NCBI GenBank assembly: GCA_903897005.1
Contig: CAITZZ010000103.1
Span: 1-44,704, forward strand
DNA from: an uncultured beta proteobacterium
Lineage (GTDB): Bacteria > Pseudomonadota > Gammaproteobacteria > Burkholderiales > Burkholderiaceae_C
Direction: 5' to 3'
Length of the DNA: 44,704 nt
Positions 41,535 through 44,704 of this stretch are shown one piece after another. The notes under the pieces were generated by a model. That model had not been told where the DNA came from, did not search any database, and was given only the letters and a program-made list of their open reading frames with translations. Position 1 is the first letter of the stretch. Every line of letters starts with the position of its first letter. Position numbers and translations under genes: made by a program.

Positions 41535-42920
41535 ATGCATATTCATATCCTTGGCATTTGCGGAACATTTATGGGCGGCCTGGCAGCGCTGGCGCGTGAA
41601 GCGGGTCACAAGGTGACTGGCTGTGACTCAGCTGTTTACCCGCCCATGAGCGAGCAGTTGCGCTCTCTTGGCATTGAGTTGATAGAAGGTTTTGGCGCTG
41701 AGCAGCTGGCATTAAAACCTGACATTTTCGTCGTCGGCAACGTCGTCAGCCGGGCACACCTTGCCGATGGCAGCGCCAAGTTCCCATTGATGGAGGCCAT
41801 TCTGGACGCCGGACTGCCCTATACCAGCGGCCCGCAATGGCTGGCGGAGCATGTGCTGCAAGGGCGGCATGTGATCGCCGTCGCCGGCACCCACGGCAAG
41901 ACCACGACCACGGCCATGATTGCCTGGATTCTCGAGTGCAGCGGTCTGCAACCCGGTTTTCTGGTCGGCGGCGTACCGCTGAACTTTGGCGTTTCAGCCC
42001 GATTGGGGAGTGGTGCCAGCTTCGTTATTGAAGCCGACGAATACGACACAGCATTTTTTGACAAGCGCAGCAAGTTTGTGCACTACCGGCCGCGAACAGC
42101 GGTGCTTAACAACCTTGAGTTTGATCACGCGGACATTTTTGACAATCTGGGGGCGATTGAGCGCCAGTTCCATCATCTGGTGCGCACAGTGCCAGCGCGT
42201 GGGCGCCTGCTGGTCAACGGGCTGGAAGAAAGTCTGGCGCGCGTGCTGCACATGGGTTGCTGGAGCGAGGTGCGCAGTTTTGGTGCCACCGTCAGCGACT
42301 TCAGTGCGCTGGGTGAGCCCGACGCGTTTGACGTGCTCTATCAAGGGCGTGTGATTACACGCGTGAAGTGGGCACTAACTGGTGTGCACAACCAATTGAA
42401 TGCGCTGGCCGCCATTGCAGCGGCCGAGCATGTAGGTGTCTCACCAGACGCGGCAGCGAAGGCACTGCAGTCCTTTGAAAATGTGAAGCGCCGCATGGAA
42501 CTGCGCGGCACGGTGGCATACCAGGGTGGCCGCATTGCGGTCTTCGATGACTTTGCTCATCATCCCACTGCGATTCGTACCACCATTGATGGATTGCGGC
42601 GCAAGGTCGGGTCGGGCGCGCGCATTCTGGCGGTCTTTGAGCCGCGCTCCAACACCATGAAGCTCGGCACCATGAAGGCCCAGCTTCCCTGGAGTCTTGA
42701 AAACGCTGATCTGGCGTTTTGCCATGGCGGCGCCTTGGGTTGGGATGCACGCGAAGCCCTGGCCGGCATGGGTGCCAAAGCGCAGGTGGCCGACAGCATT
42801 GATGCGCTGGTCGGACAGGTGCTGGGGCAAGCCCGTGCCGGCGACCAAATTCTGTGCATGAGCAATGGGGGTTTTGGTGGCATTCACCTCAAGTTGTTGC
42901 AGGCGCTGGAGCGCGCCTAG
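41535..42920 (+). CDS. mpl: UDP-MurNAc:tripeptide ligase Mpl
   Basis: Mpl joins recycled L-Ala-gamma-D-Glu-meso-DAP tripeptide to UDP-MurNAc. The 461-residue Mur-ligase protein starts MHIHILGICGTFMGGLAALAREAGHKVTGCD, and has the ATP loop AGTHGKTTTTAMIAW, FVIEADEYDTAFFDKRSKF and FDDFAHHPTAIRTTI. These favour Mpl over MurC. It ends tail-to-tail with aroG; the two stop codons overlap in CTAG (42917-42920). AmpD in the same window supplies the recycling pathway upstream of it. Confidence 0.95.
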   Translation: MHIHILGICGTFMGGLAALAREAGHKVTGCDSAVYPPMSEQLRSLGIELIEGFGAEQLALKPDIFVVGNVVSRAHLADGSAKFPLMEAILDAGLPYTSGPQWLAEHVLQGRHVIAVAGTHGKTTTTAMIAWILECSGLQPGFLVGGVPLNFGVSARLGSGASFVIEADEYDTAFFDKRSKFVHYRPRTAVLNNLEFDHADIFDNLGAIERQFHHLVRTVPARGRLLVNGLEESLARVLHMGCWSEVRSFGATVSDFSALGEPDAFDVLYQGRVITRVKWALTGVHNQLNALAAIAAAEHVGVSPDAAAKALQSFENVKRRMELRGTVAYQGGRIAVFDDFAHHPTAIRTTIDGLRRKVGSGARILAVFEPRSNTMKLGTMKAQLPWSLENADLAFCHGGALGWDAREALAGMGAKAQVADSIDALVGQVLGQARAGDQILCMSNGGFGGIHLKLLQALERA

Positions 42921-44056
42921 CGCGCCCGGCGAAGCTTGACCGCCTGTGACAACAATTCCAGTGAAGCGCAGGATTCATCCCAGCCCAGACAGGCATCGGT
43001 GATGCTCTTGCCGTATTCCAGGCGCGAGGCATCGTCCTTGCCGGCAGTGAACTTCTGCGAGCCAGCGCGCAGGTGGCTTTCGATCATCACGCCAAACACG
43101 CTCTTGGAGCCACCGGCAATCTGCTCTGCAATGTCGCGCGCAACATCGAGTTGCTTCTCGTGACGCTTGCTGCTGTTGGCGTGACTGCAGTCGACCATCA
43201 GGGTCGCTGGCAGTTTGGCAAGCGACAGGTCCCTGCAGGCGGCAGCGACGCTGGCAGCGTCGTAGTTGGGTGTCTTGCCGCCGCGCAGGATGACGTGGCA
43301 ATCCTGGTTGCCGCTGGTCTGCACGATGGCCACCTGGCCGTTCTTGTGAACCGACAGAAAATGGTGCCCACCGGCCGCGGCCTGAATGGCGTCGGTGGCA
43401 ATCTTGATGTTGCCATCGGTGCCGTTCTTGAAGCCGATCGGCGCTGACAGACCCGAGGCCAGTTCGCGGTGTACCTGGCTCTCGGTGGTGCGAGCGCCAA
43501 TGGCACCCCATGAAATCAAGTCACCCAGATATTGGGGCGAGATGACGTCCAGGAACTCGCTGCCGGCCGGCAGACCAAGACGGTTGACTTCAATCAGCAA
43601 TTGGCGCGCCATGCGCAGACCTTCGTCGATGCGGAAGGACTCATCCAGATACGGATCGTTGATCAATCCTTTCCAGCCCACAGTGGTGCGCGGCTTTTCG
43701 AAATAGACGCGCATCACAATCTCCAGCGTGTTGGCGTACTTGTCACGCTGCTGTTTGAGTTGCTGTGCGTAGTCCAGCGCGGCAGCCGGGTCGTGGATGG
43801 AGCAGGGGCCGATGACGACCAACAGGCGGTCGTCGTGGCCGGTCATGATGTTGTGGATGCTTCGGCGCGTGCTGCTGATCAGTGACTCGGCGGCCGTGCC
43901 ACGAATCGGAAAAAACCGGATCAAATGTTCGGGAGGCGGCAACACGGTAATGTCCTTGATGCGTTCGTCATCGGTCTGACCGGTTCGGTCAGTGCGAGGC
44001 GTATTCGGGTTCGCATACCAGGCATCCGCTTGGTTGGATGTTGCTTTGGATTTCAT
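42917..44056 (-). CDS. aroG: DAHP synthase (class I, AroG type)
   Basis: AroG condenses phosphoenolpyruvate and erythrose 4-phosphate, the first step of aromatic amino acid synthesis. The 379-residue protein has LLVVIGPCSIHDPAAALDYA, MRVYFEKPRTTVGWKGLINDP, GARTTESQVHRELASGLSAPIGFKNGTDG and VDCSHANSSK. This is the class I-alpha set, with the metal-binding Cys in GPCSIHD. The N-terminus is about 25-30 residues longer than E. coli AroG. Which aromatic amino acid inhibits it is not readable. The leader region 44136-44266 suggests control by attenuation. Confidence 0.95.
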   Translation of the reverse strand: MKSKATSNQADAWYANPNTPRTDRTGQTDDERIKDITVLPPPEHLIRFFPIRGTAAESLISSTRRSIHNIMTGHDDRLLVVIGPCSIHDPAAALDYAQQLKQQRDKYANTLEIVMRVYFEKPRTTVGWKGLINDPYLDESFRIDEGLRMARQLLIEVNRLGLPAGSEFLDVISPQYLGDLISWGAIGARTTESQVHRELASGLSAPIGFKNGTDGNIKIATDAIQAAAGGHHFLSVHKNGQVAIVQTSGNQDCHVILRGGKTPNYDAASVAAACRDLSLAKLPATLMVDCSHANSSKRHEKQLDVARDIAEQIAGGSKSVFGVMIESHLRAGSQKFTAGKDDASRLEYGKSITDACLGWDESCASLELLSQAVKLRRAR

Positions 44057-44135
44057 CTTCGCTTTCCTTCATTTGTTGGGGACAGAGCTGGCTCGCGTCG
44101 CGTAGCTGCGGTCTGTCCCACAATGTTTCACGGTT

Positions 44136-44167
44136 AAAAAAAAACCGCCGGGGTGCCGGCGGTTTTT
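44136..44167 (-). terminator. Intrinsic terminator in the aroG leader (attenuator)
   Basis: Read on minus, AAAAACCGCCGG and CCGGCGGTTTTT form a 12-base-pair hairpin with a 4-base loop, followed by a run of nine T (44144-44136). It ends about 80 bases before the aroG ATG. In the leader upstream, GGCGGT (44215-44210) can pair with ACCGCC of the first arm, an alternative structure expected for an antiterminator. The hairpin is strong on both strands. Confidence 0.8.
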
Positions 44168-44197
44168 GGAAGATCAGGACGTTTCTATCAGGTACGT

Positions 44198-44266
44198 TCA
44201 GAACTCTCTACCGCCGCAGGCGCTTGAGAACCAAAAATAGCTAAAGTAAAAACTGGCCGACTTCAT
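44198..44266 (-). CDS. Aromatic leader peptide of aroG (attenuation)
   Basis: A 22-residue ORF, too short for ordinary gene calling, precedes the aroG terminator. It begins MKSASFYFSYFWFSS and ends GGREF before TGA. Eight residues are aromatic: five Phe, two Tyr and one Trp, seven of them within positions 6-13. Stop to terminator spacing is about 30 bases. This is the layout of pheL/trpL-type attenuators, where ribosome stalling at the aromatic codons prevents the terminator. There is no Shine-Dalgarno; TACATT (44279-44274) lies 7 bases before the ATG, so the transcript may be leaderless. Confidence 0.7.
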   Translation of the reverse strand: MKSASFYFSYFWFSSACGGREF

Positions 44267-44293
44267 AGGAGTAAATGTAGCACACGCGCGGCT

Positions 44294-44379
44294 GTCATCC
44301 CGGACGCTAGCGAGTCGTCATCCCGGACCATGGTTTGTCATCCCGGACATGGTTTGTCATCCCGGACCTGATCCGGGAT
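44294..44379. repeat. Clustered GTCATCCCGGAC repeats upstream of aroG
   Basis: GTCATCCCGGAC occurs at 44294, 44317, 44337 and 44356. The last copy ends in a full palindrome, ATCCCGGA, CCTGA, TCCGGGAT (44359-44379). The units are spaced 19-23 bases apart with partly similar spacers. They belong to the same palindrome family as in hisG/hisD and hisA/hisF, and sit between tldD and the aroG leader. Confidence 0.85.
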
Positions 44380-44411
44380 CCATCGCTTGCGTCGATTGGA
44401 CAATGGAGGGC

Positions 44412-44704
44412 TCAGGCGGTGCCACCGACGGTCAGGCCGTCAATGCGCAGCGTCGGCTGGCCGACGCCTACCGGAACGCTTTGGCCCTCCTTGCCGCAGG
44501 TGCCGACACCGCTGTCGAGTTTCATGTCGTTGCCGATCATGCTGACGCGCTTGAGGCACTCGGGGCCACTGCCGACCAGGGTTGCCCCTTTGACCGGGTA
44601 CAAAATCTTGCCGTTCTCGACCCAGTAGGCCTCGCTTGCGGAGAAAACAAATTTTCCTGAGGTGATGTCAACCTGTCCGCCGCCGAAGTTGCTGGCGTAA
44701 AGCC
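44412..44704 (-). CDS. tldD: Metalloprotease TldD, C-terminal end (partial)
   Basis: The gene runs off the window; the visible end is about 97 residues and stops with TGA at 44414-44412. It reads [22 protein letters not shown], then [44 protein letters not shown] and finally LTVGGTA, the well-known end of TldD. TldD forms a zinc protease with TldE (PmbA) that processes modified peptides such as microcins and helps degrade CcdA. tldE is not in the window. Confidence 0.93.

Follow-up and report, generated by a model that had tools for sequence, protein, structure and literature searches.

A predicted ribosome-mediated attenuator with an aromatic leader peptide upstream of aroG in Burkholderiales

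The window analysed here is a 44,704-nt stretch of DNA from an uncultured betaproteobacterium of the order Burkholderiales (contig CAITZZ010000103.1), and the features described below lie on its minus strand. A gene for a 379-residue class I DAHP synthase of the aroG type was found at 42917..44056 (PF00793, 313.6 bits; TIGR00034 (aroFGH), 526.4 bits, cut-off 173.2), and its start at 44056 is preceded by an AAGGA ribosome site. The initial annotation had called this gene aroG. A class I DAHP synthase gene is indeed present, but the letter G is not certified by the profile scores: the product falls below the cut-off of the AroG equivalog NF006723 (541.6 versus 568 bits) and above that of the Trp-sensitive AroH subfamily NF009396 (504.5 versus 463 bits). 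The name aroG is therefore used here provisionally as to isozyme.

Upstream of aroG, a putative leader peptide ORF, MKSASFYFSYFWFSSACGGREF, was identified at 44198..44266; it consists of 22 codons and a TGA and lacks a Shine-Dalgarno (SD) motif. It contains the block FYFSYFWF (44228..44251), the putative control codons, in which seven of the eight residues are aromatic. A predicted intrinsic terminator, supported by sequence, fold and conserved pairing, follows at 44136..44167 and is composed of the 12-bp hairpin AAAAACCGCCGG-CACC-CCGGCGGTTTTT with a T9 tail (nine T in all). The segment CGGCGGT (44210..44216), located inside the 3′ end of the ORF, was assigned as the antiterminator strand from pairing, covariation and geometry. 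Its GGCGGT (44215-44210) is complementary to ACCGCC (44158..44163), which the alignment and pairing identify as both the 5′ arm of the terminator and the antiterminator partner, and the terminator's own 3′ arm carries the same GGCGGT at 44149-44144. Furthermore, a candidate extended −10 element, TGCTACATT, was read from the sequence at 44274..44282, 7 nt before the leader ATG. The ORF and the hairpin had been annotated correctly to the base, and the two segments proposed to pair with each other can do so. The leader RNA folded at −48.1 kcal/mol compared with −34.3 (sd 3.47) in 200 shuffles, approximately 4 sd better.

A generic promoter and terminator scan of the window reported neither element at this site. 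The terminator was missed because the rule requires five T after the stem, and the stem absorbs the first five of the T9 run; the promoter was missed because the rule needs a −35 box. The region is flanked by two repeats that are dispersed in the genome: a CCGGGATGACA-type repeat upstream (44293-44382) and a palindromic GTGGGACAGA...TCTGTCCC repeat between the terminator and aroG (44074-44128). The flanking-repeat query gave 46 matches in the genome for the whole query, itself included.

Conservation was investigated by comparing 110 aroG loci, 30 from the same and related genomes and 80 from named contigs. L012, L014 and L039 were left out as they had no readable upstream DNA (L014 and L039 are apparently the same contig), and the remaining 107 loci all encode different aroG proteins. 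A script searched for a CCGCC/GGCGG terminator together with an ORF containing at least five aromatics in nine residues. Both were found in 84 of the 107 loci (24/28 from the same and related genomes, 60/79 from named contigs), and two further members were recognized by eye: L101, whose terminator lies outside the stretch scanned, and L060, which has a weaker ORF (YHFWHFH). The leader was absent in the other 21 aroG loci, including those of Polynucleobacter, Thauera, Azoarcus, Rhodocyclus, Enterovibrio, Chitinimonas and others, as well as two Cupriavidus copies. The initial annotation had pointed to Comamonadaceae as the group in which to look for conservation; the arrangement is conserved there but is not limited to that family, as it recurs in many Burkholderiales. 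The carriers include Polaromonas, Variovorax, Ramlibacter, Acidovorax, Comamonas, Hydrogenophaga, Rubrivivax and Ideonella, and also Burkholderia, Paraburkholderia, Caballeronia, Cupriavidus lacunae, Massilia, Janthinobacterium and Noviherbaspirillum. The initial annotation would have been refuted by relatives that keep the terminator without the aromatic codons, and it withstood this comparison: an aromatic ORF was found in 84 of the 86 loci with a script-found terminator, and the exceptions were L060 and L118, the hairpin of which lies at −496 and is probably unrelated to the attenuator. On a quick aroG tree (86 with the leader, 21 without), the leader label required six changes compared with 19.4 for shuffled labels, with leaders occurring on either side of the deepest split drawn. 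The two Cupriavidus aroG copies without the leader (L071 and L073) are about 72% identical to that of the window, and the C. lacunae locus L107 has the leader. Three contigs labelled Planctomycetota, Verrucomicrobiia and Gemmataceae (L081, L084 and L085) have aroG genes that group with those of Betaproteobacteria and lack the leader; these contigs are possibly misbinned.

The 84 leaders contain on average 4.7 Phe, 1.8 Tyr and 0.86 Trp codons. Phe is present in 84/84, Tyr in 83 and Trp in 68 leaders, and all three occur in 67; the 16 leaders without Trp count among the points against the attenuator reading. Phe, Tyr and Trp exchange for one another between leaders, and the third bases of the Phe and Tyr codons are mixed (TTT 236, TTC 155, TAC 82, TAT 66). 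When the 160 nt before each terminator were dinucleotide-shuffled and only ATG starts were allowed, at least six aromatics in nine residues were observed in 79/84 real leaders versus 0/8400 shuffles, and five in nine in 83/84 real loci versus 0.2% of shuffles. For the window, 5000 such shuffles yielded an ATG ORF with at least five, six and seven aromatics in nine 10, 2 and 1 times, respectively. The short ORF is thus enriched, as expected of an attenuator, in codons for the amino acids that the regulated pathway makes.

The RNA pairing was analysed in an alignment of 71 sequences, obtained by thinning the 84 loci at 87% identity. Terminator cells were paired at 97.2%, which places a conserved intrinsic terminator between the ORF and the gene, and antiterminator cells were paired at 86.1%, which indicates a conserved alternative pairing. 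The five core antiterminator pairs are nearly fixed and, since they hardly vary, are uninformative on covariation. The pair flanking the core, 63/152, was C-G in 41 sequences, U-A in 14, U-G in 5, A-U in 1 and unpaired in 10. Over the antiterminator helix, 18 cells were changed on both sides compared with 7.1 in shuffles (0/500 as high), and two-sided changes were fewer in all six slid versions of the helix. The number of pairs with a two-sided change was only three, equalled in 71/500 shuffles, which speaks against the full 8-bp helix; the outer pairs also often fail, as seen for the outermost pair on the near side, 62/153 (22/71 sequences), and for the U-A pair 69/146 on the other side of the core (42/71). 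Because the terminator stem shares the same arm, the antiterminator covariation is three-way. Relative to the ORF, 47 leaders have the GGCGG motif in frame 0, 32 in frame 2 and 1 in frame 1, and 4 lack an exact copy; the RNA motif is thus kept although the peptide ends differ (GGREF, PLADREG, NPKAVE). Its retention across frame changes, together with the covariation of the flanking pair with the terminator arm, indicates that selection acts on the RNA. The antiterminator duplex averaged −20.5 kcal/mol compared with −17.8 with shuffled flanks and was better in 66/80 loci. The best complementarity per locus was modest (median shuffle fraction 0.025, up to 0.525), and the GGCGGT/ACCGCC match of the window is only moderately unlikely by itself (7 pairs, 3% of 200 shuffles). 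The case for a switch is carried by conservation across loci and not by the window match alone. The window's terminator (−17.7) is more stable than its antiterminator (−14.9), so that folding must be kinetic.

A covariance model built from 71 leaders was used to search 250 genomes of the order, the genome of the window included. Matches at E ≤1e-3 were obtained in 94/250 genomes, many of the weak ones covering only the 3′ part with the terminator. There were 64 matches at E ≤2.6e-7, and all 60 of those fetched (60/60) lie 5′ of aroG on the same strand within 253 nt. At least three of the 60 (in the genome of the window, G025 and G030) are places from which the model was built, and two more of the 64 strong matches are loci already in the comparison (L030 and L032). 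An ORF with at least five aromatics in nine accompanied 57/60; L170, L174 and L175 had only 4, 4 and 3, respectively. Ten weaker fetched matches (L179-L188) are not 5′ of aroG. A class-wide search of 276 genomes gave 13 with a match at E ≤1e-4, 3 of them from the family of the window, and 10 were inspected. Four matches outside the order (families f61 and f66) have the same arrangement before aroG, and in 3 of these 4 loci an A-U pair at one end of the conserved stem is replaced by G-C; L193-L195 are bare terminators. Six aroG upstream regions of family f28 contained no convincing leader, one of them (L205) having one ORF with five aromatics in nine. Three of the weaker matches (L179, L180 and L182, in G138, G259 and G202 of one f28 genus) consist of an aromatic leader, ..YFYWYRSS.., and a hairpin before a gene of ~203 codons, which is followed by a DUF4870 gene; an 86-residue piece of the ~203-residue protein had no Pfam or NCBIfam match, and aroG lies elsewhere in these genomes, with no convincing leader.

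We also examined how the leader transcript may start. An SD 4-mer at −17 to −5 was absent in 83/84 leader ORFs (about 10% of shuffles have one), and an in-frame start with an SD 4-mer was found for 76/84 aroG genes in a test that allows many candidate starts. An extended −10 element, mostly TGCTACATT, ended 6–8 nt before the leader ATG in 53/84 loci versus 0.27% in shuffles, and the base preceding the ATG was C in 68/84. Among the other 31 loci, 18, mostly of the Burkholderia and Oxalobacteraceae types, have TATAAA/TATAGT-like boxes 31–53 nt upstream, a count made without a chance control. With the extended −10 at this distance, transcription would be expected to begin at the A of the leader ATG or at an adjacent base. 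Judging from this promoter spacing and the lack of an SD, many leader mRNAs are probably leaderless. There is a precedent in Sinorhizobium meliloti, the trpL leader RNA of which is described as beginning with the ATG of the leader ORF in the cited part of that work (PMC7298713).

The geometry of a translating ribosome was modelled by folding only the RNA ahead of it. The leading edge was set 13 nt downstream of where the A-site codon begins, and the folded stretch ended immediately before the second terminator arm. With the ribosome at some aromatic codon, the antiterminator formed in silico with P ≥0.5 in 80/80 leaders having an exact GGCGG, and in the window P was 0.85–1.0 for all seven aromatic codons. 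Single codons with low P occur in L010, L030, L053, L082, L083, L110 and others, examples being the last aromatic codon of L010, L082 and L083. With the ribosome at the stop codon, the GGCGG segment was upstream of the leading edge in 80/80, and the antiterminator P is then zero by construction of the model. In silico, therefore, stalling freed the antiterminator and a ribosome at the stop blocked it in 80/80 leaders, the stop case by construction. Since GGCGG lies just behind, not under, the stop-codon ribosome in many loci, the blocking must presumably be steric. A 1:2 protector (pause) hairpin is an accessory part of attenuators and is not present in every one; folding without a ribosome revealed no conserved one here (P of the antiterminator 0 to 1, median 0.65, window 0.0), as the ribosome-free default state varies among loci. 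The claim that antiterminator and terminator exclude each other gains from both the covariation of the alternative pairing and the geometry in the 80 loci tested.

From these parts, their conservation, the covariation and the in silico geometry, we infer the following sequence of events, from the initiation of transcription through translation and ribosome stalling to termination and the aromatic amino acid response. RNA polymerase would start at or beside the leader ATG, and a ribosome would load on the leaderless message. With ample charged tRNA-Phe, -Tyr and -Trp, the ribosome would run on to the stop codon and keep the GGCGG at the ORF end from pairing; CCGCC would then pair with the downstream GGCGG, forming the terminator and leaving aroG off. 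When aromatic tRNA is poorly charged, the ribosome would stall in the FYFSYFWF block, and the free GGCGG would capture CCGCC before the second arm of the terminator has been transcribed, letting RNA polymerase read on into aroG. We are highly confident that the system is a ribosome-mediated transcription attenuator, and the model and codon content suggest that it probably senses the charging of Phe, Tyr and Trp tRNAs.

Other explanations of the region were considered. Since a same-strand reading frame, open at the window end (44412-44702), ends ~245 nt before the hairpin, the hairpin might be only the terminator of that upstream gene and the ORF a product of chance. This is extremely unlikely, given that an aromatic ORF accompanies the hairpin in 84/86 loci and is not reproduced by shuffles, that a promoter-like element directly precedes the ORF, and that 60/60 fetched strong model matches precede aroG. 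The peptide is hydrophobic, and an ORF followed by a terminator is also the layout of TnaC-like arrest peptides, in which a defined nascent chain stalls the ribosome on a small molecule rather than codons sensing tRNA charging. Arrest peptides, however, keep specific residues; here Phe, Tyr and Trp interchange, the block is not of constant length and lineages differ in their C-terminal residues (GGREF, PLADREG, NPKAVE), which makes this reading very unlikely.

The region could also mainly make a small RNA or peptide acting in trans, with cis control of aroG being secondary, as termination would set free a leaderless leader RNA of ~130 nt in the manner of rnTrpL/peTrpL of S. meliloti, as described in the cited part (PMC7298713). 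The conservation is concentrated on the attenuator parts, however, and the same 60 matches are tied to aroG, so that we consider this scarcely credible. Attenuation of aroG in cis remains our preferred reading.

Next, the leader was compared with known systems. No Rfam family matched the window or 20 related loci at gathering cut-offs, and RF01859 Phe_leader (20.9 bits) was below its cut-off of 55. The 11 sub-threshold matches listed, including NsiR1 (27.3 bits), Phe_leader and RNAI, were rejected as identities; most of them, in our judgement, reflect a terminator hairpin in common. The E. coli pheL-pheA and trpL-trpE systems are leader-peptide attenuators, and they share with the present one the aromatic codons of a short ORF, the mutually exclusive antiterminator and terminator, and the ribosome-coupled logic. 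Unlike them, the present leader has as its target the gene for the first enzyme of the pathway, DAHP synthase; it contains codons for three aromatic amino acids, has no SD, is probably leaderless and holds the antiterminator segment inside the ORF. A comparative survey of attenuators was reportedly published in FEMS Microbiology Letters in 2004. The S. meliloti trpL (rnTrpL/peTrpL) resembles the present leader in starting at the ATG (PMC7298713), a start that is predicted here, and in attenuating an aromatic-pathway gene, but differs in its Trp codons, its target trpE(G) and its host class, the Alphaproteobacteria. The nearest printed idea we found is the uORFC-13-1 motif, likened and set apart here by its description alone: a predicted Phe uORF and terminator before the DAHP synthase gene aroF, with 24 representatives from Acholeplasma and environmental sequences only and at least one Phe codon (PMC8632094). 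In Shewanella, regulatory RNAs were predicted for aroF and aroH, a table noting an attenuator that senses Tyr-tRNA for aroF, and a proposal for E. coli aroF is cited in the same work (PMC2659441); for Vibrio aroA-I-alpha-Y > tyrA, attenuators are listed in a table (PMC1173090). These proposals share the post-initiation control of DAHP synthase genes but concern Gammaproteobacteria, and no Phe/Tyr/Trp leader peptide is described for those genes in the parts cited (PMC2659441, PMC1173090). Our literature search, which covered titles and abstract starts with few subscription papers, returned, among the papers listed, no recognisable report of an aroG leader peptide in Betaproteobacteria and no answer on how Burkholderiales set aroG expression. 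As its mechanism is classical, the aroG attenuator belongs to a known kind; its distinctive features are the proposed broad three-amino-acid sensor and the probable leaderless start.

The flow of carbon into all aromatic amino acids is gated by DAHP synthase, whose genes are regulated in E. coli by TyrR and TrpR. No match to TrpR or to a TyrR-type HTH was found in the genome of the window, which is 91.6% complete, so that this absence is not proof; a TyrR-type HTH was present in 3/39 genomes searched. In a regulon survey, TyrR and TrpR are described as conserved in many gammaproteobacterial groups and absent in other classes, as far as the cited part goes (PMC5343134). The conserved attenuator offers a concrete, testable answer to how Burkholderiales set aroG expression and bears on the engineering of Cupriavidus and its relatives for aromatic production. 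The findings further point to a second lineage that translates attenuator leader peptides from leaderless mRNA. A wider reading, in which this leaderless, SD-less sensor of three amino acids is the main transcriptional control of shikimate entry in Burkholderiales, replacing TyrR/TrpR, with the released RNA and hydrophobic peptide acting in trans, is speculative and in our estimate unlikely.

Finally, other genes of the same genome were inspected. The 400 nt upstream of the second DAHP synthase copy (C150) yielded no listed ORF with at least three aromatics in nine, and no convincing candidate was found upstream of a pheA-type gene, the start of which was estimated; two aromatic ORFs there lie inside the apparent coding sequence. 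Before trpE (L196, contig C211), a short ORF with three Trp codons, MFIHRIWITGCSDRGAWPWRTQQGLSGRT, was read by eye; it was passed over by the aromatic filter of the script, and downstream of it lies a CAGCCGG/CCGGCTG hairpin that lacks a T run.
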